From positions 1 through 52,884 of the forward strand of contig MVZQ01000001.1 in assembly GCA_002068435.1 (NCBI GenBank): DNA of 52,884 nucleotides, written 5' to 3'. Source of the DNA: Euryarchaeota archaeon ADurb.BinA087 (GTDB lineage: Archaea > Halobacteriota > Methanomicrobia > Methanomicrobiales > Methanospirillaceae). The number at the start of each line of letters is the position of its first letter. The stretch's first letter is position 1. Below, one piece after another: positions 9,341 to 28,059 of this stretch. Under the pieces are notes generated by a model, which was given only the letters and a program-made list of their open reading frames with translations, made no database searches and had not been told where the DNA came from. Both the position numbers and the translations under genes were made by a program.

Positions 9341-12300
9341 ATGTCGTGTCGCAAGCTGACTCTTATTGGACTCTTGGTAGTTCTGTGTATTGTTGGTATC
9401 GCTTTTGCTGAAGATATCAATGATATCCCTGGCGCATCAACCAATGCGCCAGAAGTTGTATTGATTTCTGGAGAAAACGGAAACAGTCCCGTGGAAGTAA
9501 TTCCAGGAGACGGAGGGCCGGAAGGTGCTGGACCCCCCGATTCATTGGAACAACCTGTTGTTCTAATAGGTGGATCGGGTAGTAACCCTGAAGTGAAAGA
9601 TGCCCCTGTTTTATCGGAAGCGGCCCCCCCCGAAGAGGAAGTGGCGGTCCTTGTGAAATTCAAGGGATCGGCCGGTAAGGCAGACATTGATAAGGCTATC
9701 AATGAATGCGGTGGCAAGAAAGACCGGGAGATCCAGAAGATTGGCGTCCATGTTCTCAAGGTTCCGGCAAGTAAAGCAGCGTCGGTCGTTGAAAAGTACA
9801 AGGCCCAGGGGAATGTCGAGTACGCTTCCCTCCCGGTAAAATTCAAGGCCGCTGCAACTCCTGACGATACATATTATAGTGATCAATGGGCACTTCCTGC
9901 AATTGACTGGGATGTGGTATTCGGTAACATTCCAATATCAGGTTCAGCGACCATTGCGGTCTTGGATACTGGCGTTGATGCCACTCATCCGGACCTGGAT
10001 GGAAGGATTGATGCAACCTATGCAAAAAGTTACACCGGGAGCAGTGCCACAACAGATCCCAATGGGCACGGGACTGCTCTTGCCGGCATAGCTGCTGCTG
10101 AAGTCAATAATAATGAAGGTATAGCCGGCGTTGCCTATGGTTCCAATATCACGATTATGCCTGTCCAGGTGCTGGGATCCGATGGAACCGGGTCTGATGC
10201 GGATATTGTAGAAGGAGTGATATGGGCTGCTGATCATGGTGCCGATGTCATTTTAATGGGCTTCAGCAGTCCGGATTATTCTCCTACCCTCGCCAGCGCT
10301 GTCTCCTATGCCTGGAGCAAAGGGGTGGTCCTTATCGCTGCAACTGGTAACGAAGGTTCCGCTGCATCTACCTACCCGGCAGGAATGACCTATGTTCTCG
10401 GTGTAGCTTCGACTGATGTGTATGATACTCTTGCAGCAGATAGCAATACTGGGAGTGCCATGGTTGCTGCTCCAGGTGTCGCGATCTATACTACTGCCAT
10501 TGGGGGGGTATATCGAACAACCAGTGGAACTTCTGCCGCTGCTGCCAATGTAGCCGGACTTGCAGCCCTTCTGAATGCGAGTGGATACAATAATACCTAT
10601 ACCTTCGATCAAATCAGGGGTGCAGTCGATCCAATTGGAACGCTGCCTTTTGGTCGAATAAATGTTTCTAAAGCTATTGGATATGCCGTCACTCCACCAC
10701 CAACCCCTGTCCCAACTGAAACCCCCATGCCTACGGTAACACCAACGTATGTAATCGCAGAAAAATGGACTATAGAAGGCTGGACAAAGGAAAATCCGGG
10801 TGGTTGGACCACAGGACAAATCAAGGGATGGGCTGAAAGTGATTGTGTCGATTTCAGAGTTACTCTAAATCTCTCCAAGAATGATGCTAACATTACCTCA
10901 GGAACTACGGGAATAAAGTTTGAACATATGAGGAATGGATACATTGGATATGATAATCTTACCAGTTTCGTATTTGTCGATGAAACAGGAACACCTGGTA
11001 CGGTTATTCCCATCCCCGATGGAGCCATTACCTTTACAGGATTCACAGGTACCGATCCTGTGTTTGGAATTTACACGTGGGATTTCAGCAAATTACCGGT
11101 ATATAAGCAACATGATTATGCACTATACTTTTGTGCCGAACTGGGGGTTGAAGCCGGGGAAATCCCTGGTGGCTCATTGTCAATGGGATTAGTCAGTCCC
11201 ACGATGAATATCGGGATTAATCCCGGAGATCTTATTCAATATGATTCAATTACTATTGTCAAACATGCGTGTCCTGATGTCAGGGCGTTTGATTTTACCA
11301 GCGATATTCCTGGTAATACATCCTTCAGCCTCTCAGATTTAGAAGATAAGGTGATTCTGTTCCTAGGAGTTACTGCAACCTACCACATCACCGAAACACC
11401 TGTAGATGGCTGGACTACAAGTATTGCCATAACAGGTGATACCAGTGGCGGATCATCTTCGAGCGGCACTACGGCGACAATTGATCTGGATCCTGGTGAA
11501 GATATCACCGTTACCTATACCAACACAGCAATACCCAATATGACGGTTCTGAAAAAGATCATTTCTGAACAGGAATCGTATGCACCTGGTGACAAAATTA
11601 ATTACAGCTATGAAGTTCTCAACGAGGGTATCACAACACTCTCTGGTATCCAAGCCACTGATAATAAAACAGGAGCGATAGATCTTGACACAACAACACT
11701 TCTACCAGGAGAATCAGCTTACGGTTATGCCAATTATACCGTAAAACCTGGCGATCCGGCAGAGATCACGAATATTGTGACGGTTAATGCTACTGACAGT
11801 TGTGGTACATTCATCGAACGAACCGCTGATGCTACTGTTGGTATAGCTTCGAAAGTGACTATCACATGTCCTCCAGCGGTAACAATAGAATGCGATGATT
11901 CGCAAGATCCATATGAAAACAGCATTCTTGGAATACCTGAAGCTAACACCACCTGTAAAGATCCTAACAGTACGATTGTATTTTCCTATAGTGATGTGCG
12001 GACTGATGGAGACTGTCTACAAAACTATACCATTACAAGAACTTGGACTGCCTCAGACTACTGTGGAAAATCGGCTACGTGCGAACAGACCATCACGGTG
12101 CAAGATACTACCCCGCCCGTCCTTCCCGAGCTGCCGACCGGCGGCTACCTTGGCTGCAACACCCCGCCGAGCTGCACTGAAGGATTGAAGGCAACGGATA
12201 ATTGCGATAGTGATGTGCCTGTAACCTGCTCTGCGGGTACGATCCAGGAAAATAATTGTCTGCGGACTCAGGTCTTTACATATAGTGCAACAGATGACTG

Positions 12301-13855
12301 CGGTAACACGAACAGCAGTACGGTGACCTACACCTGGAAGGAAGACCTCGTTCCGCCGGTTCTGACCGTCCCGGACGACAGCGATCTTGGATGCAACCCG
12401 GAGGAGGAGGAAATACCGGAGACCATAACAGTCAGCGCCCTGGACAACTGTGACGGAGCACTCACCCCGTCAGTCACCTATGTCGATACCCAGGACGGCT
12501 GCATCTGGACCCGGAACTTCACCGTGACCTCGACTGACGAATGCCTGAACACGGCAACCGATTACGTTGAGATCACCTGGAAGGAAGACCTCGTTCCGCC
12601 GGTTCTGACCGTCCCGGACGACAGCGATCTTGGATGCAACCCGGAGGAGGAGGAAATACCGGAGACCATAACAGTCAGCGCCCTGGACAACTGTGACGGA
12701 GCACTCACCCCGTCAGTCACCTATGTCGATACCCAGGACGGCTGCATCTGGACCCGGAACTTCACCGTGACCTCGACTGACGAATGCCTGAACACGGCAA
12801 CCGATTACGTTGAGATCACCTGGAAGGAAGACACCACAGCGCCGGTTCTCACCTGTCCCCCAGATGCAACAGTACCCTGGGGAGACCCGACCGACCCGGC
12901 TCACACCGGAACTGCAACAGCAGACGACAACTGTGACGGTAGTGTCCCTGTGTCCTACACCGATGGAGCACCCACACCAAGCACTAGCGCTGACTGTTAC
13001 CAGTTCACCAGGACTTGGACAGCCACGGACGACTGCGGCAATGTAGCGACCTGCACTCAGATGATATATGTCAAATCGAGCACAATCTGCGGCATGAAAT
13101 GGTATGATGTAGATGTCGATGGAGTAAAGGATCCGCTGGAAGTCCCGGTGAAAGGGATTACGATTCAGCTCTATGACTCAGCTGGAAAGCTCATCGCATC
13201 TAAAGTCACCGGTACGGACGGAGGGTACTGCTTCAACCACCTGAAACTCGGTACCTACACCGTCAAGGAAGTCCTGCCAAGCGGTGCCACATGGATAGGA
13301 ATACCACCAACGAGCTTATCGGTCACGCTAGACACCTACTGTGTCGTCAGCGATGGCCATAACTTCGGAAATATCTGCCTGGGTGAAGGAAATGGCCGTA
13401 CGCTTGGATTCTGGTCCAATAAGAACGGACAGGCCCTGATTACACTCGAAATGCTTACCGGACTTAATGATTTACCATTGGAAAATGCAGCTGATATAGA
13501 TCGGGACTTTGTAAGCAAGACAGATTTCAGGAATTGGCTGCTTCGCGGAACAGCGTCCTCCAACATGGGGTACAAACTCTCGACTCAGCTGGCAGCGATG
13601 TATCTGAACGTGAATGCTCCGACCGGCAAGGGAAGGCCGAATGCAGTTGATCCTAACGCATATATCTATGCACCTGGCACCAAGAGTGCAAACACTTTCG
13701 GATTCGCAACGATCCAGCAGATCATGAATGAGGCTATAGATGCCTTGAATGAGTATCCGGTTAAGCCGACCCGTGCATACGAAGAAACATTAAGTAGAGC
13801 TTTGGACAGGGCGAACAATAATCTGAACTTTGTTCAGAGTAAACCCTGTACCTGA
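9341..13855 (+). CDS. Giant secreted S8 protease with SpaA-, DUF11-, HYR- and SdrD-B-like modules
   Basis: A 1504-residue multidomain protein. A signal peptide (1-24) is followed by a propeptide (about 100-165) and a subtilisin-type domain (about 180-445) with D209 (DTGVD), H243 (NGHGTA), N337 (TGNE) and S398. The serine motif reads GTSAAAANVAG, without the usual Pro-His after the serine. A Pro/Thr linker (451-468) leads to an unknown domain (about 470-640), a SpaA/prealbumin-like domain (about 645-730), a DUF11-like domain (about 732-830) and five cysteine-rich HYR-like repeats (about 838-1246). Two of these repeats are an exact 243-bp DNA duplication. An SdrD-B-like domain (about 1247-1345) precedes a C-terminal domain starting GRTLGFWSNKNG (1350-1504), which is shared with the N-terminus of the next gene. 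The start is set by the signal peptide; gaggta lies 11 bases upstream. There is no membrane anchor. It probably acts outside the cell as a processing or adhesive protease. Confidence 0.9.
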   Translation: MSCRKLTLIGLLVVLCIVGIAFAEDINDIPGASTNAPEVVLISGENGNSPVEVIPGDGGPEGAGPPDSLEQPVVLIGGSGSNPEVKDAPVLSEAAPPEEEVAVLVKFKGSAGKADIDKAINECGGKKDREIQKIGVHVLKVPASKAASVVEKYKAQGNVEYASLPVKFKAAATPDDTYYSDQWALPAIDWDVVFGNIPISGSATIAVLDTGVDATHPDLDGRIDATYAKSYTGSSATTDPNGHGTALAGIAAAEVNNNEGIAGVAYGSNITIMPVQVLGSDGTGSDADIVEGVIWAADHGADVILMGFSSPDYSPTLASAVSYAWSKGVVLIAATGNEGSAASTYPAGMTYVLGVASTDVYDTLAADSNTGSAMVAAPGVAIYTTAIGGVYRTTSGTSAAAANVAGLAALLNASGYNNTYTFDQIRGAVDPIGTLPFGRINVSKAIGYAVTPPPTPVPTETPMPTVTPTYVIAEKWTIEGWTKENPGGWTTGQIKGWAESDCVDFRVTLNLSKNDANITSGTTGIKFEHMRNGYIGYDNLTSFVFVDETGTPGTVIPIPDGAITFTGFTGTDPVFGIYTWDFSKLPVYKQHDYALYFCAELGVEAGEIPGGSLSMGLVSPTMNIGINPGDLIQYDSITIVKHACPDVRAFDFTSDIPGNTSFSLSDLEDKVILFLGVTATYHITETPVDGWTTSIAITGDTSGGSSSSGTTATIDLDPGEDITVTYTNTAIPNMTVLKKIISEQESYAPGDKINYSYEVLNEGITTLSGIQATDNKTGAIDLDTTTLLPGESAYGYANYTVKPGDPAEITNIVTVNATDSCGTFIERTADATVGIASKVTITCPPAVTIECDDSQDPYENSILGIPEANTTCKDPNSTIVFSYSDVRTDGDCLQNYTITRTWTASDYCGKSATCEQTITVQDTTPPVLPELPTGGYLGCNTPPSCTEGLKATDNCDSDVPVTCSAGTIQENNCLRTQVFTYSATDDCGNTNSSTVTYTWKEDLVPPVLTVPDDSDLGCNPEEEEIPETITVSALDNCDGALTPSVTYVDTQDGCIWTRNFTVTSTDECLNTATDYVEITWKEDLVPPVLTVPDDSDLGCNPEEEEIPETITVSALDNCDGALTPSVTYVDTQDGCIWTRNFTVTSTDECLNTATDYVEITWKEDTTAPVLTCPPDATVPWGDPTDPAHTGTATADDNCDGSVPVSYTDGAPTPSTSADCYQFTRTWTATDDCGNVATCTQMIYVKSSTICGMKWYDVDVDGVKDPLEVPVKGITIQLYDSAGKLIASKVTGTDGGYCFNHLKLGTYTVKEVLPSGATWIGIPPTSLSVTLDTYCVVSDGHNFGNICLGEGNGRTLGFWSNKNGQALITLEMLTGLNDLPLENAADIDRDFVSKTDFRNWLLRGTASSNMGYKLSTQLAAMYLNVNAPTGKGRPNAVDPNAYIYAPGTKSANTFGFATIQQIMNEAIDALNEYPVKPTRAYEETLSRALDRANNNLNFVQSKPCT
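12341..12826 (+). repeat. Exact 243-bp tandem duplication inside the 9341 gene
   Basis: 12341-12583 and 12584-12826 read as identical; each encodes an 81-residue HYR-like module with conserved cysteines. The reading frame is kept. Identity at silent sites points to a very recent duplication or active gene conversion. Confidence 0.9.
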
Positions 13856-13977: not shown

Positions 13978-15873
13978 ATGGAGTCAAGACTAACAACAAA
14001 AATCACGATTCTGGGGCTCTTACTCGCCCTTCTCTTTCTTGTACTACCTGCTGTGGCAGCTAATGAGAACCTGTATACCGTAAAGGACTGGTCGGGATCG
14101 GAGGGGAAAGACCTCATCCAGGAGACTGACCTCGCACGGCTCTCCTATCTGAACCTGGTCGATGCCGGAGGACTTTCTTTTGATCCTGCCATGTCGCCAG
14201 CATGGCATTCAAGGTTGAAAGTCTGGCTGCTGCGAGCCGATGCATCATCCAACATGGCTTACCAGCTCTCAGGCCAGCTGGCAGCGATGGACCTGAATGT
14301 CAACATCCGGAACGTTGATGGAGCAACCTCAATTTATGCTCCCGGTACTCAGAGTGCAGATCAACTCGGGTATGCAACCATTCAAGCGGTCATGGCCGAG
14401 GCAGATACCGAGCTTGGGCTGCATCCCCTGACCATCGCTGGAAGTCCGGAGCGAGAGTACCAGGAAGCACTGAAACATGCCCTTGAACGGGCAAATGGCG
14501 GCAGTGCTGAGGCTGCAGATCTCATAGTTACGGGTGCAGCATCCACAATCGTAGCAGAAGAGGGAGAATTGAGCTACACCGCACCGGGGAGCATCAAAGC
14601 CTGTGGGGATGATGTGTTTGGCGAGGCCGACCCGCCAAATGATTCGGACTTCACCGCGATCGCTGCAGGGTCATTTCACAGCCTTGCCCTGCATTCAAGC
14701 GGTACGATCGAAGGCTTTGGCTGGGATGAGTATGGCCAGATTGCAGTTCCTGCAGGAACCTACAAGGCGATGGATGCTGGATTTGTCCACAGCATCGGGC
14801 TTCTCTCAACCGGTGCGCTGGCAGCCTGGGGTGACAACGAGAACAGCCAGATATCACCTCTGCCGTCAGGCACGTTTATTGCCGTAGGAGCAGGGGACGC
14901 ACACAGTGTTGCACTGCGATCGGACGGTACTATTGCCTGCTGGGGAGATAATGAGTATGGCCAGGTATCAGGTGCCCCGAGTGGAACATTTACTGCCATT
15001 GCTGCCGGGGGATCCCACAACCTCGCTTTAAGGTCCGATGGCTCGCTTGCCAGCTGGGGATATGATGCGTATAATCAGGTCTCTGCCACCCCATCTGGCA
15101 ATGACTTTGTCAGGATCGCTGCAGGTCCCTATCATAGCCTGGCCTTGCGATCGAACGGCACAATTGTCGCCTGGGGTGGAGACTTTACCGGACAGGTATC
15201 GGGGAAACCTTCAGGTACCAACTTTGTCGCCGTTTCGGCAGGACTGGAGCACAGCCTTGCACTCACCTCCACTGGGACGGTCGTAGGCTGGGGCTCTGAC
15301 TACGCAGGCCAGTATCCCATGCCGGCCGGAACCTACTCTGCCATCTCGGCCGGCGACTATTACAGTCTGGGAATAGTTGGGACTTCAATTACACCGGTAG
15401 CAGCGTTCAGCGCCAATAAAACAACCGGCATCGCTCCCATGACTGTCCAGTTTACCGATAATTCGCTTGGTGCCGGTACCCTGACCTACGCCTGGGACTT
15501 CAACAATGACGGGACACCTGACAGCACCGCGAAGAACCCGGTATACACCTTCCCGGCAGCAGGGACTTATACCATCAAAATGCGAGTAACCAGCTCGGGC
15601 GGTTCTTACGACGAGATCACCAAGGCGAATTACATCAAGGCCCAGGCAATCCTGACGATACCCGGCCAGGCTAATCCTCCGACCGATCCAGATTCTGACG
15701 GGCTGTATGAGGATATGAATGGTGGAGGGACCATTGGATTTGCCGATGTGGTCATATTCTTCAACAATGTCGAATGGATCAAGGCGAACGAACCGGTCTC
15801 GGCATTTGACTTCAGCGGGAATGGAGCAATAGGATTCGGCGATGTCGTATTGTTCTTCAATCAGGTGGGGTGA
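13978..15873 (+). CDS. Secreted RCC1-like propeller protein with PKD and dockerin-like modules
   Basis: A 631-residue secreted protein. A signal peptide (about 1-28) is followed by a domain (about 30-180) homologous to the C-terminus of the previous gene; shared strings include SSNM-Y-LS-QLAAM-LNVN and Y-APGT-SA. Residues about 205-465 are six to seven RCC1/ATS1-type propeller blades (AAGSFHSLAL, ALRSDGTI, WGDNEYGQ). Then come one PKD domain (about 471-555, WDFNNDG) and a C-terminal pair of dockerin-like calcium loops (563-631: DMNGGGTIGFAD and DFSGNGAIGFGD, with acidic or Asn residues at loop positions 1, 3, 5 and 12). It is the first gene of an operon with 15877, only three bases downstream. 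The propeller probably binds a protein or glycan partner; no enzyme motif is seen. Confidence 0.88.
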   Translation: MESRLTTKITILGLLLALLFLVLPAVAANENLYTVKDWSGSEGKDLIQETDLARLSYLNLVDAGGLSFDPAMSPAWHSRLKVWLLRADASSNMAYQLSGQLAAMDLNVNIRNVDGATSIYAPGTQSADQLGYATIQAVMAEADTELGLHPLTIAGSPEREYQEALKHALERANGGSAEAADLIVTGAASTIVAEEGELSYTAPGSIKACGDDVFGEADPPNDSDFTAIAAGSFHSLALHSSGTIEGFGWDEYGQIAVPAGTYKAMDAGFVHSIGLLSTGALAAWGDNENSQISPLPSGTFIAVGAGDAHSVALRSDGTIACWGDNEYGQVSGAPSGTFTAIAAGGSHNLALRSDGSLASWGYDAYNQVSATPSGNDFVRIAAGPYHSLALRSNGTIVAWGGDFTGQVSGKPSGTNFVAVSAGLEHSLALTSTGTVVGWGSDYAGQYPMPAGTYSAISAGDYYSLGIVGTSITPVAAFSANKTTGIAPMTVQFTDNSLGAGTLTYAWDFNNDGTPDSTAKNPVYTFPAAGTYTIKMRVTSSGGSYDEITKANYIKAQAILTIPGQANPPTDPDSDGLYEDMNGGGTIGFADVVIFFNNVEWIKANEPVSAFDFSGNGAIGFGDVVLFFNQVG

Positions 15874-15876
15874 GAT

Positions 15877-18800
15877 ATGGGTGACACCGGTCTAAAAAAA
15901 ACTCACTTTTTGATACTTTTGTTCGCATTCTTTTGCATTCTTGGTACCACCGCATCGGCAAGTAACCTGATCATCGGGAACGGACGGATTGATGCGATCG
16001 GTGGAACCGCTGCTTTTGATATTATCCTTGATTCAGCACCAAACGGTCTTGCCGGGTATAGTATCAATGTCGCAATTGGGAATCCTTCGGTCGCAACGAT
16101 TGCAGCTGCTACCTTTCCCGGATGGGTGACGAACAACGACATAATCCCTCCCCTGCCCGCATCCTCATGCAAATTGAAAGGATTGGATGGCGAAGAGCTG
16201 ATTCAGGATGGTGCAGGAAATATTGTACTTGCTACGGTTACCCTCCAGGGGCTGGAAGAAGGGGTGACCCCTGTCACTCTCAATGTGGTTCTGATGAGTG
16301 ATGACGATGATCTTGACATCAACCCGACCGTCGTTCCGGGCACCTTGATCGTTGAGCTGCCCCCTCTCGCCGATTTTTCGGCAAACACCACGTCCGGGTA
16401 TCCCCCGCTGACCGTCCAGTTCACCGACCTCTCGGCCGAAGAGCCAACGGAGTGGTCGTGGGATTTTACTTCCGATGGATCTATTGACAGCGATGAACAG
16501 AACCCCTCCTTCACGTACGAGTCGCCGGGAACCTACTCGGTCACCTTGACTGCTACCAATGATGGGGGAAGTGATACCGAAATAAAAGCCAATTATATCA
16601 CCGTTATAGTACCGCCGCCGGTAGCGAACTTCACTGCCAATACGACATCAGGTACAATGCCGCTGAAGGTGCAGTTCACGGACCTGTCGACCGGTTCGCC
16701 GACGAGCTGGTCCTGGGATTTCCAGAATGACGGGAGCACGGACAGCACTGTTCAGAATCCGGTATTCACCTATCCGGCAGCCGGGACGTATACGGTGAAT
16801 CTGACGGCAACCAATGCTGGTGGGAGTGATGAGGAGATCAAGAATAATTACATCACGGTAAACATACCGCCGCCGGTAGCGAACTTCACTGCCAATACGA
16901 CATCAGGTACAATGCCGCTGACGGTGCAGTTCACGGACCTGTCGACCGGTTCGCCGACGAGCTGGTCCTGGGATTTCCAGAATGACGGGAGCACGGACAG
17001 CACTGTTCAGAATCCGGTATTCACCTATCCGGCAGCCGGGACGTATACGGTGAATCTGACGGCAACCAATGCTGGTGGGAGTGATGAGGAGATCAAGAAT
17101 AATTACATCACGGTAAACATACCGCCGCCGGTAGCGAACTTCACCGCGAACACCACGTCCGGGTATGCCCCGCTGACGGTGCAGTTCACCGACCTGTCAA
17201 CCGGTTCCCCGACGAGTTGGACCTGGGACTTCCAGAATGATGGGAGCGCGGACAGCACGGTCCAGAACCCTATGTTCACCTATCCGGCAGCCGGGACGTA
17301 TACGGTGAATCTGACGGCAACCAATGCTGGCGGGAGTGATGAGGAGATCAAGAATAATTACATCACAGTAAACATACCACCGCCTGTCGCGAACTTCACG
17401 GCGAATACCACGTCCGGGTATGCCCCGCTGACGGTGCAGTTCACCGACCTGTCAACCGGTTCCCCGACGAGTTGGGCCTGGGACTTCCAGAATGATGGCA
17501 GCACGGACAGCACGGTCCAGAACCCTATGTTCACCTATCCGACCGCCGGCACCTACTCGGTGAAGCTGACCGCGAATAATGATGGAGGGGCTGATACTGA
17601 AACAAAATCCACCTACATCACGGTCACGGTCGCTCCGCCGGTGGCGAACTTCACCGCGAACACCACGTCCGGGTATGCCCCGCTGACGGTGCAGTTCACC
17701 GACCTGTCAACCGGTTCCCCGACGAGTTGGACCTGGGACTTCCAGAACGACGGGAGCACGGACAGCACGGTCCAGAACCCTTTGTTCACCTATCCTACCG
17801 CCGGCACCTACTCGGTGAAGCTGACCGCGACCAATGATGGAGGGGCTGATACTGAAACAAAATCCACCTACATCACGGTCACGGTCGCTCCGCCGGTAGC
17901 GAACTTCACCGCGAACACGACGTCGGGATATGCTCCGTTGACGGTGCAGTTCACGGACCTGTCGACCGGTTCGCCAACGAGTTGGGCCTGGGACTTCAAC
18001 AACGACGGGACAGTTGAAAAAACCGACCAAAATCCGGTGATTACCTTCCCGGCCGGAACGTATACGGTCAAGCTGACGGCGACCAATACCGGCGGGAGTG
18101 ATGCGGAGATCAAGAGCAATTACATCACGGTCACGATAGCTCCGCCGGTAGCAGATTTTACCGCCAATAAAACCTCAGGAACGGCCCCACTGACGGTGCA
18201 GTTCACCGACCTGTCAACCGGGTCCCCGACGAGTTGGGCCTGGGACTTCAACAACGACGGGACGGTAGACAAGACCGACCAGAATCCGAAGATCACCTTC
18301 CCTGCAGGCACGTATACCGTGAAGTTGACCGCAACCAATGTCGGCGGGAGTGATGCGGAAATCAAGACGAACTACATCACGGTTACTATTCCTCCCCCGG
18401 TCGCGAATTTTACCGCCAATAAAACGTCAGGCACCCTCCCCCTGACGGTGCAGTTCACGGACCTGTCGACCGGGACGCCGACGAGTTGGGCCTGGGATTT
18501 CCAGAATGATGGGAGTACTGACAGCACGGCCCAGAATCCAATGTTCACGTATCCGGCTGCCGGCACCTACACGGTAAATTTGACGGCAACAAACACTGGC
18601 GGGAGTGACGCGGAGGTCAAGACGAACTTTATCACGGTAAACATTCCTCCGCCGGTAGCGAACTTCACCGGGAACACGACGTCGGGATATGCTCCGTTGA
18701 CGGTGCAGTTCACGGACCTGTCGACCGGTTCCCCGACAAGTTGGGCGTGGGACTTCAACAATGACGGGACGGTAGACAAGACCGACCAGAACCCGGTGAT

Positions 18801-20145
18801 CACATTCCCGGCAGGTACCTACACGGTGAAGCTGACGGCAACCAATACCGGCGGGAGTGATGTGGAAATCAAGACGAATTACATCACGGTCACGGTCGCT
18901 CCCCCCGTTGCAGATTTTACCGCCAATAAAACCTCAGGAACAGCCCCACTGACGGTCCAGTTCACCGATCTTTCGACCGGTTCCCCGACGAGTTGGGCCT
19001 GGGACTTCAACAACGATGGGACGGTAGACAAGACCGAACAGAATCCGAAGATCACCTTCCCGGCCGGAACGTATACCGTCAAGCTGACGGTAATCAACGC
19101 CGGCGGGAGCGATTCAGAGATCAAGACGAACTACATTACGGTAACTATCCCTCCCCCTGTGGCAAATTTTACGGCCAATAAAACATCAGGAACTGCTCCG
19201 CTGACGGTACAGTTCACGGACCTGTCGACCGGGTCGCCGACGAGTTGGGCCTGGGACTTCCAGAATGACGGGAGCACGGACAACACCGTCCAAAACCCGG
19301 TATTCACTTACCTGGAGGCTGGTACCTATACGGTGAATCTGACGGCGACTAATGCCGGCGGGAGTGATGCGGAGATCAAGACGAACTATATTTCCGTCAC
19401 GGTAGCTCCGCCTGTCGCGAACTTTACGGCGAACATTACCTCGGGATATGCTCCGCTGACGGTGCAGTTCACGGACCTGTCGACCGGTTCACCGATGAGC
19501 TGGGCCTGGGATTTCCAGAATGACGGGAGCACAGACAGCACGGACCAGAACCCCGTCTTCACCTATCCGGCAGCCGGCACTTTCACGGTGAAGCTGACGG
19601 CAACCAATGATGGCGGGAGTGATCCCGAGATCAAGACGAACTACATCACCGTCACGGTAGCGGTTCCCCCTGAAGCAAAGTTCAGTGCAGACAAACAGAC
19701 GGGCATCGCCCCCCTGGAAGTCCAGTTCATGGACGAGTCGACTGGGAGTGGTCCACTCACCTATGCCTGGGACTTTAACAGTGATGGTACGGTTGAGAGT
19801 GAACTCCAGAATCCGCAGATAACGTTCCCCTCCGGGATATACACGGTCACGCTGACCGTGACCGGCCCGGGTGGGTCGGATTCAGAGACCATGACGGATT
19901 ATATCAGGAGCTACGCGATAATACCGCTGCCGGGCCAGGTCAAACTGCCTGCCGATCCTGATGGTGATGGTTTATTTGAGGATATCGATGGAAGCGGAAC
20001 GATAGGGTATGATGACGATTTCATCCCGTTCTTTGAGAATATTGAGTGGATGAGATCAAACGAACCAGTCCCAGCATTCGATTTCAGTGGTAACGGAGTC
20101 CTGGGATTCCATGATGCGGTATTATTCTTAAAGGAGGTCCGATGA
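15877..20145 (+). CDS. Giant surface protein: cohesin-like head, 14 PKD repeats, dockerin-like tail
   Basis: A 1422-residue secreted protein. The signal peptide ends near residue 28 (TTASAS). Residues about 29-163 form a cohesin-like beta-sandwich (IGNGRIDAIGGTAAFDIILD, LAGYSINVAI) also found in the genes at 20142, 24934 and 27361. Fourteen PKD domains follow to about residue 1355, each 84-86 residues with VQFTDLSTGSPTSW and WDFxNDG. Most units have a 255-bp DNA period, and units 2 and 3 appear to differ by a single base. The last 65 residues carry two dockerin-like calcium loops (DIDGSGTIGYDD, DFSGNGVLGFHD). PKD arrays usually act as spacers and as protein or glycan binders on methanogen surfaces. 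Start at 15877 is supported by gtggggtgaga just upstream and three-base spacing from the previous stop. The stop overlaps the next start (ATGA). Confidence 0.9.
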   Translation: MGDTGLKKTHFLILLFAFFCILGTTASASNLIIGNGRIDAIGGTAAFDIILDSAPNGLAGYSINVAIGNPSVATIAAATFPGWVTNNDIIPPLPASSCKLKGLDGEELIQDGAGNIVLATVTLQGLEEGVTPVTLNVVLMSDDDDLDINPTVVPGTLIVELPPLADFSANTTSGYPPLTVQFTDLSAEEPTEWSWDFTSDGSIDSDEQNPSFTYESPGTYSVTLTATNDGGSDTEIKANYITVIVPPPVANFTANTTSGTMPLKVQFTDLSTGSPTSWSWDFQNDGSTDSTVQNPVFTYPAAGTYTVNLTATNAGGSDEEIKNNYITVNIPPPVANFTANTTSGTMPLTVQFTDLSTGSPTSWSWDFQNDGSTDSTVQNPVFTYPAAGTYTVNLTATNAGGSDEEIKNNYITVNIPPPVANFTANTTSGYAPLTVQFTDLSTGSPTSWTWDFQNDGSADSTVQNPMFTYPAAGTYTVNLTATNAGGSDEEIKNNYITVNIPPPVANFTANTTSGYAPLTVQFTDLSTGSPTSWAWDFQNDGSTDSTVQNPMFTYPTAGTYSVKLTANNDGGADTETKSTYITVTVAPPVANFTANTTSGYAPLTVQFTDLSTGSPTSWTWDFQNDGSTDSTVQNPLFTYPTAGTYSVKLTATNDGGADTETKSTYITVTVAPPVANFTANTTSGYAPLTVQFTDLSTGSPTSWAWDFNNDGTVEKTDQNPVITFPAGTYTVKLTATNTGGSDAEIKSNYITVTIAPPVADFTANKTSGTAPLTVQFTDLSTGSPTSWAWDFNNDGTVDKTDQNPKITFPAGTYTVKLTATNVGGSDAEIKTNYITVTIPPPVANFTANKTSGTLPLTVQFTDLSTGTPTSWAWDFQNDGSTDSTAQNPMFTYPAAGTYTVNLTATNTGGSDAEVKTNFITVNIPPPVANFTGNTTSGYAPLTVQFTDLSTGSPTSWAWDFNNDGTVDKTDQNPVITFPAGTYTVKLTATNTGGSDVEIKTNYITVTVAPPVADFTANKTSGTAPLTVQFTDLSTGSPTSWAWDFNNDGTVDKTEQNPKITFPAGTYTVKLTVINAGGSDSEIKTNYITVTIPPPVANFTANKTSGTAPLTVQFTDLSTGSPTSWAWDFQNDGSTDNTVQNPVFTYLEAGTYTVNLTATNAGGSDAEIKTNYISVTVAPPVANFTANITSGYAPLTVQFTDLSTGSPMSWAWDFQNDGSTDSTDQNPVFTYPAAGTFTVKLTATNDGGSDPEIKTNYITVTVAVPPEAKFSADKQTGIAPLEVQFMDESTGSGPLTYAWDFNSDGTVESELQNPQITFPSGIYTVTLTVTGPGGSDSETMTDYIRSYAIIPLPGQVKLPADPDGDGLFEDIDGSGTIGYDDDFIPFFENIEWMRSNEPVPAFDFSGNGVLGFHDAVLFLKEVR
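16621..17130 (+). repeat. Near-identical pair of 255-bp PKD units
   Basis: 16621-16875 and 16876-17130 appear to differ only at one base (AAG versus ACG, Lys to Thr). Units at 17386 and 17641 are another close pair. The same period continues through the array to about 19670, with units two bases-triplets shorter where one residue is missing. Confidence 0.85.
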
Positions 20146-23100
20146 ACGTGCATAAAGGCAGAGAAGAACACATAGTGAGGAGTATACTCCTCTTAGTCAC
20201 GCTGGCATTTCTCGTGAGCGGGGCATCGGCCGTCGTACTCAGTATTGACAACGGTCAGGTAAATGCAATTGGCAGCTCAGCTGCTGTCAATATAACCCTT
20301 GATTCGGCACCGAACGGCCTTGCCGGATACAGTATCAACATAACCCTCGGCACATCGTCGGTTGCAACAATATCAGACACGTCATTTCCGGGCTGGGCAA
20401 CGAATACGGAAGTAATCCCAGACCCCCCTTCTTCATCCTGCAGGGTAAAAGCGCTGGACGGGGAAGAAAAAATCCAGGATGGATCGACAGAAGTAACGCT
20501 GGCGACTCTCACTCTCCAGGGACTTTCGGAAGGGGTAACTCCGGTCACCCTTACAGTGAATCTGATGAGCGATGATGATGACAACGATATCTTCCCGACC
20601 GTTATCTCCGGTTCATTCACGGTAAATACCTCCGGTGCCTTGAAAGCAGACTTTTATGCCAATTCCACATCGGGGAATGCCCCCCTTACTGTACAGTTCA
20701 CCGATCTATCCCTAGGTTCACCGACGAGTTGGGCCTGGGACTTCCAGAATGACGGGAGCACGGAAAGTACCCTTCAGAACCCGGTGTTCACCTATGCGGC
20801 AGCCGGTGCCTACACGGTGAAGTTGACTGCGACCAATGCCGGCGGAAGCGATGAAGAGATCAAGACGAACTATATCAACGTCACCACCGCTCCGCCCGAT
20901 GCGAATTTCACGGCTAATAAAACGTCAGGGAAAGCACCCCTGACGGTGCAGTTCACGGATCTCTCTCTCGGCTCACCAACGAGCTGGGCCTGGGACTTCC
21001 AGGATGATGGGAGCACGGACAGCACAGCCCAGAACCCGGTGTTTACCTACCCTGACGCCGGGTTATATACCGTCAGACTGACCGCGACCAATGCCGGCGG
21101 GAGCACTACCGAGACCAGGACCAATTACATCAGCGTCGCGGTTGCTCCCCCGGTTCCCGATTTCACCGCGAATAAAACGTCCGGGAATTATCCCCTGACG
21201 GTGCAGTTCACGGACCTGTCCACGGGTTCTCCTGCCACATGGGACTGGGATTTCCAGGACGATGGGACTGTCGACAGCCATGACAAGAACCCGGTGTTCA
21301 CCTACTCAACTCCCGGTAACTATTCCGTCAGGTTGATGGTGGGAAACGCTGGCGGGAGTGATTACCTGGTCAGGGAAGATTACATCACCGTCAGCTATAA
21401 TGCCCCTGTCGCGAACTTCACCGCGAATACCACCTCAGGGTACGTCCCGTTGACAGTACAGTTCACGGACCTGTCCACTGGCATACCCACGAGCTGGGCC
21501 TGGGACTTTGAGAATGACGGCAGCACCGACAGCACTGCGCAGAATCCGGAATACACCTACCCCTCTGTAGGGAACTATACGGTGAAGCTCACCGTCACCA
21601 ACCCGAGCGGGAGTACGTCTGAGATCAAGACCGATTATATCAGGGTCCTGCCACCCCCGCCCGTCGCGCAGTTCACCGCCAACAAGACCGCAGGCAACGC
21701 ACCGTTGACCGTGCAGTTCACGGATCTCTCGACCGGTTCACCGACGAGTTGGGCCTGGGACTTCCAGAATGATGGCAGCACAGACAGCACTGCGAAGAAT
21801 CCGGTCTTTCCGTACGCGACGCCAGGCCTGTATTCCGTGAAGCTCACGGCCACGAACGCAGGCGGGAGTGATCCAGAGATCAAGACCAACTATATCAACG
21901 TCACCACCGCTCCACCGGTCGCGAACTTCACGGCCAACAAGACAGCGGGGACCGCACCGTTGACGGTGCAGTTCACGGATCTCTCGACCGGTTCACCGAT
22001 GAGTTGGGCCTGGGACTTCCAGAATGATGGGACCACGGACAGCACTGTAAAGAACCCGGTCTTTACCTATGCGGCAGCCGGAACGTATACCGTGAAGCTG
22101 ACGGCGACTAATGCTGGCGGGAGTGATCCTGAGATCAAATCCAACTACATCACTGTCACCGTAGCTCCGCCGACAGCAAACTTCACGGCCAACAAGACCG
22201 CAGGGAACGCCCCGCTGACGGTGCAGTTCACGGACCAGTCGACCGGTTCACCAACGAGCTGGGCCTGGGACTTCCAGAATGATGGCAGCACTGACAGCAG
22301 TACGAAGAACCCGGTCTTTACGTATGCGACGCCAGGCCTGTATTCCGTGAAGCTCACGGCCACGAACGCCGGCGGGAGTGATCCAGAGATCAAGACCAAC
22401 TATATCAACGTCACCACCGCTCCACCGGTCGCGAACTTCACGGCCAACAAGACAGCGGGGACCGCACCATTGACGGTGCAGTTCACGGACCTTTCGACCG
22501 GGACGCCGACGAGCTGGGCCTGGGACTTCCAGAATGATGGGACCGTGGACAGCACTGTAAAGAACCCGGTCTTTACCTATGCGACACCGGGCTTGTATTC
22601 CGTGAAGCTCACAGCAACCAATACGGGGGGAAGTAATACCACGGTCAGGACCAACTACATCAACGTCACCACGGTGCCACCGGTGGCCAATTTCACGGCC
22701 AACAAAACATCCGGAGGCGCTCCCCTGACGGTGCAGTTCACGGATCTCTCGACCGGGTCACCGACAAGTTGGGCCTGGGATTTCCAGAATGACGGCAGCA
22801 CGGACAGCACTGTGAAGAACCCGGTCTTTACGTACGCGATGCCAGGCCTGTATTCCGTGAAGCTCTCGGCGGCCAACGCTGGCGGGAGTGATGTTGAGAT
22901 CAAGACCAGCTATATCAACGTCACCACGGTGCCACCGGTTGCGAATTTCAAGGCCAACAAAACAACCGGGGGCATCCCCCTGACCGTGCAGTTCACGGAC
23001 CTGTCTACCGGGTCACCGACGAGCTGGGCCTGGGACTTCCAGAACGACGGGACTACGGACAGCAGTGTTCAGAACCCGGCGTTCACCTACACGACACCCG

Positions 23101-24686
23101 GCACGTACACCGTGAATCTGACGGCGACGAACAGCAAGGGGAGTGACAGCGAGGTCAGGACCAATTATATCACGGTCAGTTCAGGACCATCCCTTGCAGT
23201 AACCACTCCCAACGGAGGGGAGATCTGGACACAGGGCTCCAGCCACAACCTCACGTGGACCTATTCCGGAGAACTGGGATCTTCGGTGAAGATCGAGATC
23301 CTGAAGGGGACCCCCCCTCTGGCAACGCTCGCCTCCAGTGCCTCGATCGGGACAGGTGGCTCCGGATCCTACCTGTTCACGTTCCCGTACTATACCCCGC
23401 TTGCGAATGATTATAAGATCCGGATCACCAGCAACGCCAATCCGGCGTATAGTGATACGAGCGATGCCGCCTTCTCGATCACATCAGCGATTACGGTAGC
23501 ATCTCCCAACGGCGGCGAGACCTGGCTGCCCAGCACCACCCAGACCCTTCGCTGGAACTACACCGATAGTCCCGGGGACACGGTCAGGATCGAGATACTC
23601 AGGAGTGGAGCAGCACTCGCAACGCTTGCTTCGAGTGCCCCTCTTGGGACAGGTGGATCGGGATCACTCAATTTCCCCTTCCCCTCCTACACTCCCCTCG
23701 GCACTGACTACCAGATCAAGGTCACCAGCAACACGTACCCTGCCTGCACCGATACGAGCGATGGCTATTTTGCGTTCAGCCTGCTCCCCTCAATCACGGT
23801 GACGGCACCAAACGGCGGGGAGACCTGGCCACAGAATTCAACCCAGACCATCCAGTGGAGCTACACGGAGGACCCGGGATCTCAGGTACTGATTGAGCTG
23901 CTCAGGGGCACTACCGTCCAGCAGGTAATTACCGCCGGGACCTCCCTTGGGTCGGGAGGATCCGGATCGTTCAGCTTTGCCGTCCCAACCAGCCTCCCCC
24001 TGGGAAGTGACTACAAGGTCCGGATCACCAGCACCAGCAATGCCTCGTATACCGATACGAGTGATGCCGCATTCACGGTCAGCGAGCCAACGTCAATACG
24101 GGTGGTAGCGCCTGAAGGAGGAGCTACCCTCTACCGGGGTGATCCCCTCGTGATGAACTGGTCGTATACCGGCACCCCGGGACCGACGGTGACTATCGAG
24201 GTGTTCAAAGGACCCCTGAAGATGGCCACGCTCCCGAACATCCCCGTCGGGTCGGGAGGGAATGGCACATTCAGTGTGAAGCAGATCCCCGCCGGTACAC
24301 CCGTTGGGGCTGATTACACGGTCACGGTCACGAGCACCCTCTCCCCGACCATCACCGATACCGGCGATGCCTTCGCGATCTCCGGTCCCACCATCCATGT
24401 AGCGTCTCCCAACGGGGGAGAAACCTTCCCGAGAGGAGGCCCTCTTGCCATGAGCTGGACGTATAAGGGCAACCCGGGTTCCACGGTAAATATCGAGGTG
24501 TATCGAGGAGAAAGCAGGTTGGCAACCCTCCAGAACATCCCCATCGGGACGGGTGGAGCCGGTTCGTACAGCGTGCCTGCCATCCCCATGAGTACTCCGG
24601 CAGATACGGTCTACCGGATCAAGGTAATAAGTACCCTCTACGCTGATTGCAGCGATATGAGTGATGGTACCTTCACGATCAGTTGA
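20142..24686 (+). CDS. Giant surface protein: cohesin-like head, 10 PKD and 5 NGGE domains
   Basis: A 1514-residue secreted protein. A signal peptide (1-30, ending VSGASA) is followed by the cohesin-like domain (about 31-165: SIDNGQVNAIGSSAAVNITL, LAGYSINITL). Ten PKD domains occupy about 168-1015. Five Kre9/KNH-like domains (about 1016-1514) follow; each starts with a strand such as TVASPNGGETW, continues LRWNYT-PG and IGTGGSGS, and ends DTSDxxF. There is no dockerin-like tail and no membrane anchor; the protein ends DMSDGTFTIS. The start codon overlaps the previous stop by four bases (ATGA), with aaaggaggt just upstream, so translation is probably coupled. The protein likely works with the products of 13978 and 15877 at the cell surface. 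DNA repeats of about 255 bp (PKD) suggest ongoing expansion. Confidence 0.9.
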   Translation: MNVHKGREEHIVRSILLLVTLAFLVSGASAVVLSIDNGQVNAIGSSAAVNITLDSAPNGLAGYSINITLGTSSVATISDTSFPGWATNTEVIPDPPSSSCRVKALDGEEKIQDGSTEVTLATLTLQGLSEGVTPVTLTVNLMSDDDDNDIFPTVISGSFTVNTSGALKADFYANSTSGNAPLTVQFTDLSLGSPTSWAWDFQNDGSTESTLQNPVFTYAAAGAYTVKLTATNAGGSDEEIKTNYINVTTAPPDANFTANKTSGKAPLTVQFTDLSLGSPTSWAWDFQDDGSTDSTAQNPVFTYPDAGLYTVRLTATNAGGSTTETRTNYISVAVAPPVPDFTANKTSGNYPLTVQFTDLSTGSPATWDWDFQDDGTVDSHDKNPVFTYSTPGNYSVRLMVGNAGGSDYLVREDYITVSYNAPVANFTANTTSGYVPLTVQFTDLSTGIPTSWAWDFENDGSTDSTAQNPEYTYPSVGNYTVKLTVTNPSGSTSEIKTDYIRVLPPPPVAQFTANKTAGNAPLTVQFTDLSTGSPTSWAWDFQNDGSTDSTAKNPVFPYATPGLYSVKLTATNAGGSDPEIKTNYINVTTAPPVANFTANKTAGTAPLTVQFTDLSTGSPMSWAWDFQNDGTTDSTVKNPVFTYAAAGTYTVKLTATNAGGSDPEIKSNYITVTVAPPTANFTANKTAGNAPLTVQFTDQSTGSPTSWAWDFQNDGSTDSSTKNPVFTYATPGLYSVKLTATNAGGSDPEIKTNYINVTTAPPVANFTANKTAGTAPLTVQFTDLSTGTPTSWAWDFQNDGTVDSTVKNPVFTYATPGLYSVKLTATNTGGSNTTVRTNYINVTTVPPVANFTANKTSGGAPLTVQFTDLSTGSPTSWAWDFQNDGSTDSTVKNPVFTYAMPGLYSVKLSAANAGGSDVEIKTSYINVTTVPPVANFKANKTTGGIPLTVQFTDLSTGSPTSWAWDFQNDGTTDSSVQNPAFTYTTPGTYTVNLTATNSKGSDSEVRTNYITVSSGPSLAVTTPNGGEIWTQGSSHNLTWTYSGELGSSVKIEILKGTPPLATLASSASIGTGGSGSYLFTFPYYTPLANDYKIRITSNANPAYSDTSDAAFSITSAITVASPNGGETWLPSTTQTLRWNYTDSPGDTVRIEILRSGAALATLASSAPLGTGGSGSLNFPFPSYTPLGTDYQIKVTSNTYPACTDTSDGYFAFSLLPSITVTAPNGGETWPQNSTQTIQWSYTEDPGSQVLIELLRGTTVQQVITAGTSLGSGGSGSFSFAVPTSLPLGSDYKVRITSTSNASYTDTSDAAFTVSEPTSIRVVAPEGGATLYRGDPLVMNWSYTGTPGPTVTIEVFKGPLKMATLPNIPVGSGGNGTFSVKQIPAGTPVGADYTVTVTSTLSPTITDTGDAFAISGPTIHVASPNGGETFPRGGPLAMSWTYKGNPGSTVNIEVYRGESRLATLQNIPIGTGGAGSYSVPAIPMSTPADTVYRIKVISTLYADCSDMSDGTFTIS

Positions 24687-24933
24687 GGATGATGAGGGGA
24701 TCAGAAAACATGTTCACGATCAATACCGCGTGATAAGAAGGAAGAAGTCCCTGTGGCGGGGTTCACAAGAGTATCGCCTGCCACTTTTTCGATCATCCCG
24801 GAAAAATGATAATCCGGTGGAGCAGAACCTGTGTAGTGAAAGGTCAGGGAAGAGCCCCTGGGACCTCCTCTCCCGCTGCACCCCACAAGCTCCCTTGTGA
24901 CCAGACAGATTCATAAAAAGGAACAGGATTGGA

Positions 24934-27174
24934 ATGAAACAGCTCACATTGGTGGCATTCGTGCTTTTGACGCTTACCTGCCTTGTAGTAGTGGCATCGG
25001 CAAATACCCTCAGTATTGGAGATGGACAGGTCGATGCAATCGGGGCTACGGCTTCCGTGAATATTACTCTCGATGTGGCACTGACCGGGCTCTCCGGGTA
25101 TAATATCAGTATCACTGTCGATGATCCAACAATCGCAACCATCGAGAGCGTCTCCTTCCCGTCATGGGCAGGACTGAAGAGCAATTCGACACTTCCTGCC
25201 GCATCGTGCTGGATCAAGGCGATTGACACCGCAGGGCATGTGCAGAACGGTGCCGCTGATATCCGGCTTGCGACCGTCACGCTCAAGGGATTGAAATCAG
25301 GGGTGACGCCTGTCACTATCGCCCCGGTCGGGTTAGGCGTCCAGGACGACGCTGATCTGACCTACGATCCCTCCCTTGACCCGGGCACGTTCACGGTGAA
25401 CGTCCCGGTCGCTCCCGTCGCAGCATTCTCTGCCAATTCCACCACGGGATTCATGCCGCTCACCGTAGCATTCACGGACGAATCTACCGGACCCCCGACC
25501 AGCTGGGCCTGGGACTTCCAGAATGACGGAATCACGGACAGCACAGCCCAAAACCCGGTATACACCTACGCAGCCCCCGGTACCTACTCAGTGAAACTGA
25601 CGGCAACCAATCTCTGGGGGAGTGATTCAAAGACCAGGTACAACTATATCACGGTCAAGGAAGTCCCGACTCTCACCATCACCAGTCCTGCTGGTGGCGA
25701 GGTCTGGCAGCAGGGTACTACCCATCTCCTCCAGTGGACCTTTACCGCTGACCCCGGACCAACGGTCCGGATCGAAGCACTCAGGGGGACTTCGGTTCTC
25801 GCGACCATCGCCCCCAGCTATCCTGTCGGATCCGGGGGCAGCGGCTCATACTCACTGAAATTCCCCTACAACACCCCGGTCGGGGATGATTACTATATCA
25901 AGGTCACCAGCACTGCCTATCCGGCAGTATGCAGTGATACCAGTAATGCACCGTTTACCGTCATTCCTGCCATCACCGTTGTTACCCCCAACGGCGGTGA
26001 AAACTGGCATCCGGAATCCACCGAGACCATCCGGTGGACCTATGCGGGCAATCCCGGATCGGCCGTGAAGGTCGAGATCCTCCGGGGATCAACGCCACTG
26101 GCCGTCCTCACCCCGAGCACTCCTATCGGGACGGAGGAAGCCGGGTCGTTCAATTTCACGTTCCCCTCCTACTCTCCCCCCGGGACTACCTACCGGATCA
26201 GGGTCACCAGCACCAGCTATCCCGGGTGCACTGATACCAGCGATGCCCCCTTCGCAATCAGCCTTCTCCCCTCGATCACGGTGGTAGCTCCCAATGGCGG
26301 GGAAGACTGGCCTGCAGGCTCACCCAACACGATCCGCTGGAGCTATATCGATAATCCAGGACCCGATGTGAAGATCGAGCTCCTGAAGGGAGAAGCGGTA
26401 CAGCAGGTCCTTGCTGCCAGTACCCCTATCGGATCCGGAGGGGTGGGATCCTACGCCCTGGCGATACCCGCCGGGCTTTCACCCGGGAGCGATTATAAGG
26501 TGAGGGTCACCAGCACCAGCAATGCCTCGTATAGCGACACCAGCGATGCCCCCTTCACGATCAGCGAGGTCCCCTCGCTTGCCATGGAATCCCCCAACGG
26601 CGGTGAGAACTGGACCCAGGGCTCCACCCAGACGCTCCGGTGGACCTATACCGGCAATCCTGGGTCGATGGTGAAGATCGAGGCGATCAAGGGGGCCAAG
26701 GTGCTGGCAACGGTCAGCTCCAGTTATCCTATCGGCACTGGCGGATCCGGTTCATTCGACCTGAGGTTCCCCTATAACACCCCCCTTGGGAACGATTACT
26801 GGATCAGGGTCACCAGCAACGAGTACCCGGTCTACAACGATACCAGCGACGCCCCCTTCACGGTGCTGCCCGCCATCACCGTCGCATCTCCGAACGGCGG
26901 AGAGATATGGGCGCAGGGATCGTACCAGACGCTCAGGTGGAATTATACCGGAAATCCCGGACCCACGGTGAAGATCGAAGCACTCCGGTCCGGAACCTTC
27001 CTAGCAACCATCTCCTCCAGCTATCCCATTGGATCGGGAGGATCAGGCAGCTTCAACCTGACGTTCCCCACCTATACTCCCCTGGGGAGTGACTACCAGA
27101 TACGGGTGACCAGCACCACGTATCCCGCCTGTACTGACACGAGCGATGCTCCATTCGAGATTGTACCATCATGA
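24934..27174 (+). CDS. Surface protein: cohesin-like head, one PKD and five NGGE domains
   Basis: A 746-residue secreted protein. The signal peptide (about 1-23, ending VVASA) precedes the cohesin-like domain (about 24-158: SIGDGQVDAIGATASVNITL, LSGYNISITV, ATVTLKGLKSGVTPV). One PKD domain (about 160-243) and five NGGE (Kre9/KNH-like) domains (about 246-746) follow, the last ending DTSDAPFEIVPS. An 86-bp stretch (25855-25940) is identical to 31699-31784 in another gene. The start is defined by the signal peptide; an A/T-rich box, attcataaaaa, sits about 24 bases upstream, which would give a nearly leaderless transcript. A 247-base gap separates it from 20142, so it is probably its own unit. 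Role: adhesion or matrix protein by inference only. Confidence 0.88.
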   Translation: MKQLTLVAFVLLTLTCLVVVASANTLSIGDGQVDAIGATASVNITLDVALTGLSGYNISITVDDPTIATIESVSFPSWAGLKSNSTLPAASCWIKAIDTAGHVQNGAADIRLATVTLKGLKSGVTPVTIAPVGLGVQDDADLTYDPSLDPGTFTVNVPVAPVAAFSANSTTGFMPLTVAFTDESTGPPTSWAWDFQNDGITDSTAQNPVYTYAAPGTYSVKLTATNLWGSDSKTRYNYITVKEVPTLTITSPAGGEVWQQGTTHLLQWTFTADPGPTVRIEALRGTSVLATIAPSYPVGSGGSGSYSLKFPYNTPVGDDYYIKVTSTAYPAVCSDTSNAPFTVIPAITVVTPNGGENWHPESTETIRWTYAGNPGSAVKVEILRGSTPLAVLTPSTPIGTEEAGSFNFTFPSYSPPGTTYRIRVTSTSYPGCTDTSDAPFAISLLPSITVVAPNGGEDWPAGSPNTIRWSYIDNPGPDVKIELLKGEAVQQVLAASTPIGSGGVGSYALAIPAGLSPGSDYKVRVTSTSNASYSDTSDAPFTISEVPSLAMESPNGGENWTQGSTQTLRWTYTGNPGSMVKIEAIKGAKVLATVSSSYPIGTGGSGSFDLRFPYNTPLGNDYWIRVTSNEYPVYNDTSDAPFTVLPAITVASPNGGEIWAQGSYQTLRWNYTGNPGPTVKIEALRSGTFLATISSSYPIGSGGSGSFNLTFPTYTPLGSDYQIRVTSTTYPACTDTSDAPFEIVPS

Positions 27175-27222
27175 TTGGGGAGCATGAACGCGGGGGCTAT
27201 CGGCCCGGAGGCGGAGCACTCC

Positions 27223-27229
27223 TTTTTTT
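27223..27229 (+). terminator. Oligo-T terminator
   Basis: Seven T about 50 bases after the stop of the 24934 gene. Confidence 0.5.
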
Positions 27230-27360
27230 CACCATCCTGAGAGGAACCTCGGACCCGGACCGCCTTTTGTTCAGGAGGATACCGGAATAAATTACCGGGG
27301 ATTTGCACGAACAACACTGGTTTTATGGGTATCGGTGAATCTTCTGAGGTGAGGTGAAGA

Positions 27361-28059
27361 ATGAGGAGCAGGAAATGTTCGTCAGTTCCATGGGCAGCAG
27401 GTATCCTGGTAGCGCTGGTATTCCTCGGTCAGGGGGTGTCGGCAGCAGTGATCAGTATTGGAAACGGGGAGATTATGGGAAGAGGAGAGAGCACCTCCCT
27501 CGACCTGACGCTCGATGCTGCCCCGACCGGCCTTGCCGGGTACAGCATCAATGTGACGATCGGAGATCCGTCAATTGCTCGCATCACCAACGTAACCTTC
27601 CCGGAATGGGCCTCGCTCACGGATGTGACCCCGTCTCTCCCCGGTTCTGCCTTCCGGTTGAAAGCGACGGATCCGAACAGCCAGGTGCAGGAGGGTGCCA
27701 CGAACATCACCCTGGCAACCCTTCTTATCCAGGGGTTAGGGGAGGGGGAAACCCCTGTCATCCTGACCCTGAACTTGATGAACGATGAAAATGACAACGT
27801 GATACGTCCCTCTCTTCTCCCTGGCATGCTGTCAGTTCATGACCAGGGGATCTCCTCCTCGGCCGCGGGGGCTCCTCCCCCTCTCACGCCACTGCCATCC
27901 CTGACGGAGGGGGGAACCGGAGAAACAGGGGGAGGGATCACCCCTTCCCTTCCTGGCAGCGGGGCTTCTTCCCCGGAATCAGGATCTCCCCCTCTCACGT
28001 CACTGCCATCCCTGACAGAGGGCGTGAGCGATGACCTGTTCGCGATCAGTGCCGCCTGA
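27361..28059 (+). CDS. Small secreted cohesin-like protein with Pro/Ser tail
   Basis: A 232-residue protein consisting of a signal peptide (about 1-28), one cohesin-like domain (about 29-160: SIGNGEIMGRGESTSLDLTL, LAGYSINVTIGDPSIA) and a Pro/Ser/Gly-rich tail. The tail contains a repeated group, PPLTPLPSLTEG and PPLTSLPSLTEG. It has no PKD or NGGE modules. Yet its last residues, SDDLFAISAA, match the closing motif of NGGE domains (SDxxFxIS), which suggests loss of an internal block by recombination. The ribosome site gaggtg lies five to ten bases before ATG 27361. A T-run follows at 28106-28111. If the head is a true cohesin, this is a single-module soluble form. Confidence 0.82.
   Translation: MRSRKCSSVPWAAGILVALVFLGQGVSAAVISIGNGEIMGRGESTSLDLTLDAAPTGLAGYSINVTIGDPSIARITNVTFPEWASLTDVTPSLPGSAFRLKATDPNSQVQEGATNITLATLLIQGLGEGETPVILTLNLMNDENDNVIRPSLLPGMLSVHDQGISSSAAGAPPPLTPLPSLTEGGTGETGGGITPSLPGSGASSPESGSPPLTSLPSLTEGVSDDLFAISAA

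Follow-up and report, generated by a model that had tools for sequence, protein, structure and literature searches.

Do the surface-protein genes of this archaeon encode a cohesin–dockerin assembly, in which C-terminal modules (tails) of some proteins would dock on N-terminal modules (heads) of others? A sequence-only reading of the window (the whole 52,884-nucleotide stretch analysed) had proposed this for five neighbouring open reading frames, named here by their first coordinate. All five (5/5) are present, with the following features.

13978..15873, + strand: putative cargo protein, 631 aa; signal-like N-terminus, ~140-aa domain, RCC1 propeller, PKD, predicted C-terminal dockerin
14776..15312, + strand: RCC1-type beta-propeller of 13978, residues 267-445 (RCC1-like model); PF13540 E=9.9e-53, PF25390 E=3.4e-43
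15661..15867, + strand: predicted dockerin tail of 13978, residues 562-630; repeats F-A-F-N / F-G-F-N at positions 10-11-17-18
15712..15747, + strand: calcium-type loop 1 of the 13978 tail, DMNGGGTIGFAD (sequence reading and alignment; position 5 is Gly)
15808..15843, + strand: calcium-type loop 2 of the 13978 tail, DFSGNGAIGFGD (sequence reading and alignment)
15877..20145, + strand: putative scaffold rod 15877, 1422 aa; predicted N-terminal cohesin, 14 PKD repeats, predicted C-terminal dockerin with different recognition residues
15961..16365, + strand: predicted cohesin head of 15877 (alignment, AlphaFold, Foldseek)
19930..20139, + strand: predicted dockerin tail of 15877 (alignment, tail tree)
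20142..24686, + strand: putative rod 20142, 1514 aa; predicted N-terminal cohesin, 10 PKD, Kre9/KNH-type Ig repeats
20232..20636, + strand: predicted cohesin head of 20142 (alignment)
24934..27174, + strand: putative rod 24934, 746 aa; predicted N-terminal cohesin, one PKD, ~5 Kre9/KNH-type Ig repeats
25003..25410, + strand: predicted cohesin head of 24934 (alignment)
27361..28059, + strand: short protein 27361, 232 aa; predicted cohesin and a Pro/Gly/Ser-rich tail
27445..27849, + strand: predicted cohesin head of 27361 (alignment)

The first three genes are tightly packed, with a 3-nt gap between 13978 and 15877 and a 4-nt overlap between 15877 and 20142. Elsewhere in the same genome we found two heads (C27, C19) and three tails (C2, C20, C19), giving a genome total of six heads and five tails. 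The proposal that 13978 is a cargo protein carrying a propeller fits its architecture, an RCC1-type propeller (PF13540) with a C-terminal dockerin. Membrane and signal segments were called by hydropathy alone. By sequence and hydropathy, the 27361 protein has neither a dockerin nor a C-terminal membrane segment, and no surface anchor for the locus was found in the window, the genome being 76% complete. NCBIfam gave only repeat-type matches on the cluster and no family for the heads.

The surroundings are also rich in surface proteins. The N-terminal part of 13978 (38-173) shares an unnamed domain with the C-terminus (1358-1492) of the subtilase at 9341-13855 (43% identity, E=8e-25); this ~140-residue domain had no Pfam match. 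From 28924 to 49507 of the window the surface-protein cluster goes on without heads or tails, with Kre9/KNH-type Ig repeats joined to a subtilase, CARDB repeats, a papain protease and two WD40/PD40 propellers. A tyrosine recombinase of the phage integrase family lies at 2182-3144, near the start of the surface cluster, which may be a mobile island.

Identity of the heads and tails

The heads of 15877, 20142, 24934 and 27361 align over their full length as one domain of ~135 residues, at 42-56% identity to the 15877 head and with 39 columns invariant among the four, which upholds the claim that four genes start with the same domain. A Pfam scan of the window heads matched no family, their scores falling below the PF00963 (cohesin) cut-off, and PF00963 had zero matches in the whole genome. 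Heads of this kind were found in 54 of the 150 genomes of the order, and 67 of them were aligned. Scanned singly, these 67 relatives matched PF00963 more often than any other Pfam family (13/67 at E<=1, best E=1.5e-5). AlphaFold modelling on the 67-head alignment returned a pLDDT of 98.1 and a pTM of 0.90, and a Foldseek search of the PDB with the head model listed 50 matches, all of them cohesin structures (best E=1.2e-8), 2xdh included. Sequence identity to known cohesins is only 9-18%, and the head profile found weak cohesin matches alone among PDB sequences (E about 1), so sequence by itself does not settle what the head is. A conserved-peptide scan of named genomes, made with the four-row alignment, found three distant loci only. 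Run on 12 relatives, PF00963 detected no more than two loci in any genome and passed over nearly all of the present heads; the class is therefore missed by standard annotation. We conclude that the window heads are, as judged from the modelled structure, a divergent cohesin-fold family and not PF00963 members by cut-off. In the head tree, context labels cluster; its deep forks are not resolved, and for this reason we make no claim on the order of origin.

At their C-termini, 13978 and 15877 likewise share one domain, of ~70 residues and 58-61% identical. Each copy comprises two 12-residue loops with Asp at positions 1 and 12 and Asn, Asp or Ser at position 3. The dockerin calcium spacing that had been read here (1, 3, 5, 12) stands for positions 1, 3 and 12 and is weaker than described at position 5, which in loop 1 is Gly in 13978 and Ser in 15877; loop 1 of the 13978 tail has no side-chain ligand there. 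Across the aligned tails, Asp 1 and 12 are practically invariant in both repeats, positions 3 and 5 are mostly Asn or Asp, and a conserved acidic DxDxDG stretch immediately precedes loop 1. PF00404 (Dockerin_1) matched 51 of 55 tail relatives at E<=1 (best 3.2e-8); a window tail scored E=0.077 and 13.7 bits, under the curated cut-off of 22.9. The tail profile reached the solved dockerins 5lxv_B and 2y3n_B, and EF-hand proteins as well. In nearly all surveyed proteins the tail occupies the extreme C-terminus. On these alignments and profile matches, we identify the window tails as predicted dockerins.

At positions 10, 11, 17 and 18, and also 7 and 9, the two repeats of a tail are more alike than randomly paired repeats; the other variable positions show hardly any such excess. 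When each genome contributed a single tail, just 8 of the 2380 four-position sets matched the symmetry of 10/11/17/18. We take position 18 to be a member of the cohesin-recognition set. For dockerins, a part in cohesin recognition is documented at positions 10 and 11 (PMC8063739) and predicted at position 17 (PMC5590126). The cargo tails of the genome read F-[AGQ]-F-[NTQ] at 10-11-17-18 in both repeats and the C19 tail reads Y-N-F-K in both; the repeats therefore change together. At G000:C19:23730-25346, neighbouring genes carry a tail and a head of different clades. This C19 pair is probably a second specificity in the genome.

Association of heads and tails across genomes

Among the 150 genomes of the order, 44 (in 19 genera) carry both head and tail, 10 a head only, 2 a tail only and 94 neither (Fisher p=1e-25, genomes being counted individually and uncorrected for relatedness). 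PKD domains, the control for richness in surface proteins, occur in 141/150. At the level of the phylum (295 genomes, counted in the same way), 53 have both, 23 heads only and 10 tails only (p=6e-30). Tails were fused directly behind a head in 19/79; such fusions inflate the co-occurrence, yet they count as association themselves. In 22 of the 76 cases, the gene with the C-terminal tail had, no more than 300 nt downstream and in the same orientation, a separate gene with an N-terminal head; this rate is biased upward because the loci were chosen for heads or tails. In the window, this order of tail gene and head gene occurs twice in succession. At loci L081-L089, L095, L098, L100, L106, L109 and L111, a head stands a few residues before a C-terminal tail. 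Heads so placed in relatives perhaps have a role like that of an X module.

The 13978 tail and the 15877 head lie in one frame, with a stop codon and a signal peptide between them. We modelled an artificial tail–linker–head chain of 237 residues, in which the stop was read as Gly, on a largely unpaired alignment (one chain, no control). AlphaFold gave a pTM of 0.80 with a disordered linker; were the domains placed independently, we estimate that the pTM would be roughly the share of the larger domain, 135/237. The model suggests that the 13978 tail docks on the 15877 head in the read-through chain, though AlphaFold's prior exposure to many cohesin–dockerin complexes weakens this evidence. A fold search with the fused model re-finds cohesin only, because the search aligns single chains.

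Fold, family profiles, co-occurrence, the order of the genes and the symmetry of the repeats all support the proposal of cohesin-like heads and dockerin-like tails in one surface locus. The locus is, with high probability, a cohesin–dockerin surface assembly in which 13978 is cargo on cohesin rods and the 15877 dockerin leads into a second tier. Its basis is in the observed folds and families of the modules, their co-occurrence and the gene order; we infer physical binding, calcium dependence, the tail–head partners and the anchor of the assembly. The secreted propeller protein 13978 would use its C-terminal, calcium-dependent dockerin to dock on the cohesin at the N-terminus of each PKD/Ig rod (15877, 20142 and 24934) and of the short 27361 protein. 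The rods would hold exchangeable cargo (the 13978 propeller and the C2 and C20 tail proteins) away from the cell, and since the dockerin repeats are nearly symmetrical, binding in either of two orientations is possible. The 15877 dockerin would probably plug its rod into a different cohesin, for instance a membrane-anchored one as in relatives, and the outcome would be a two-tier scaffold rather than a homopolymer.

Tiers and alternative readings

The sequence-only reading had instead suggested that 15877 polymerises head to tail, its own tail on its own kind of head, with 27361 as a cap. Both modules are indeed on one chain, the head being up to 62% identical to those of its neighbours and the tail 58-61% identical to the cargo tail, so that a self-fit is possible. 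However, the 15877 tail reads Y-D-F-E / F-H-L-K at 10-11-17-18 (sequence reading), differs from the three cargo tails of the genome at 11, 17 and 18, carries a one-residue insertion and sits on a long branch of the tree. Because its recognition residues differ from those of the cargo tails, we consider a second tier likelier and self-polymerisation unlikely. Relatives with clear scaffolds point the same way: at the three-tier loci of G101, G005 and G073, the C-terminal tail of the scaffold falls in a separate clade (97), and beside the scaffold is a membrane-anchored head that also forms its own clade (99) and co-segregates with this tail. The cargo tails and the N-terminal heads of G101 are separate clades, and in congeners there are short heads that end in a membrane segment (hydropathy). 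By analogy with cellulosomes, the loci of these three genomes look like two orthogonal pairings.

Still less probable is a system of cell–cell contact rather than self-assembly, with heads that take up dockerins from other organisms or tails that bind cohesins on partner cells. For ANME archaea and the bacteria associated with them, cohesin–dockerin systems have been proposed to act in consortia (PMC10553843, PMC9012536), but here many species have tail and head genes side by side in the same genome, and in the tree the tails group according to genome, which is what tails matched to a local head would show. An additional cell–cell role beside self-assembly may be compatible with both observations. 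Finally, a reading of the tails as EF-hand caps with a structural or sorting role and of the heads as plain Ig-like adhesin tips, found together merely as surface-protein parts, seems to us very improbable: the tails match EF-hand models no less well than Dockerin_1 and the window head has no Pfam family, but the fold matches listed for the head are cohesins throughout, head and tail track each other although PKD is in nearly all of the 150 genomes, and the repeat symmetry is concentrated at cohesin-recognition positions.

The cargo of a cohesin–dockerin assembly can be compared across genomes. G069 has 42 tails, on NHL, SBBP and kelch propellers, CBM6/35, NosD/beta-helix, papain and PKD proteins, and the tail-bearing proteins of other genomes are similar; the cargo is thus mostly propeller or binding proteins. 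A distant relative, G165 (loci L170-L186), has 70 tails and about 15 heads, some in tandem, with many of the tails on GH5, GH9, GH10 and GH43 enzymes. Its content suggests what we take to be a cellulolytic halophile, and from the domain assignments its set is possibly an archaeal cellulosome. The tails of G165 appear asymmetrical between repeats. Glycoside hydrolase cargo, which defines a cellulosome, was found only in G165; in the window the two tail proteins carry an RCC1 propeller and PKD repeats. Open papers on cellulolytic halophiles call the dockerin substrate-binding and do not name any cohesin (PMC10963439, PMC13260240).

Relation to known systems

That archaeal cohesin and dockerin modules occur outside cellulosomes, as the sequence-only reading stated, was already known from Archaeoglobus and ANME archaea. 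The non-cellulosomal cohesin of Archaeoglobus fulgidus (2xdh) has the same fold as our head model (Foldseek E=7e-8, TM 0.74), in a genome that has a dockerin and no cellulase system. It differs in sequence (~14% identity), and here there are several heads per genome on PKD/Ig rods, propeller cargo, and an order of tail gene and head gene that recurs across an archaeal order. In ANME, the accessible text of two papers describes scaffoldin-like archaeal proteins with a dockerin and several cohesins (Chadwick 2022, PMC9012536; Timmers 2017, PMC5244752) and, as here, cargo that is non-cellulosic. The ANME systems were found with standard domain models, whereas PF00963 does not see the heads of the window, a class widespread in the order and in other families of the phylum; nor does that text include the conserved tail-then-head gene pair that recurs here. 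With the bacterial type I cellulosome the locus shares the same two modules, a two-repeat dockerin with symmetrical recognition positions and, in relatives, a tiered scaffold with membrane-anchored cohesins. Unlike it, the tail proteins of the window have no glycoside hydrolase, each rod has one cohesin on a PKD/Ig stalk, and an extra DxDxDG motif precedes loop 1.

The open literature, to which our search was mostly confined, gave no account of the head class or of its pairing in the order, and an order-wide, Pfam-invisible cohesin–dockerin class appears to be undescribed. We put at an even chance the wider proposition that these modules form a general archaeal surface toolkit with two orthogonal tiers, across the methanogens of the order and other families of the phylum, with a true cellulosome in G165; such a toolkit would have escaped notice because its cohesins score too low for the standard profile. 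The proposed assembly would show how an archaeal cell could display a variety of proteins on shared surface rods. It would offer a partner, missing so far, to those archaeal "type I dockerin" proteins which part of the literature treats as substrate-binding, and would provide many naturally paired modules for the study of recognition codes and for archaeal surface engineering.
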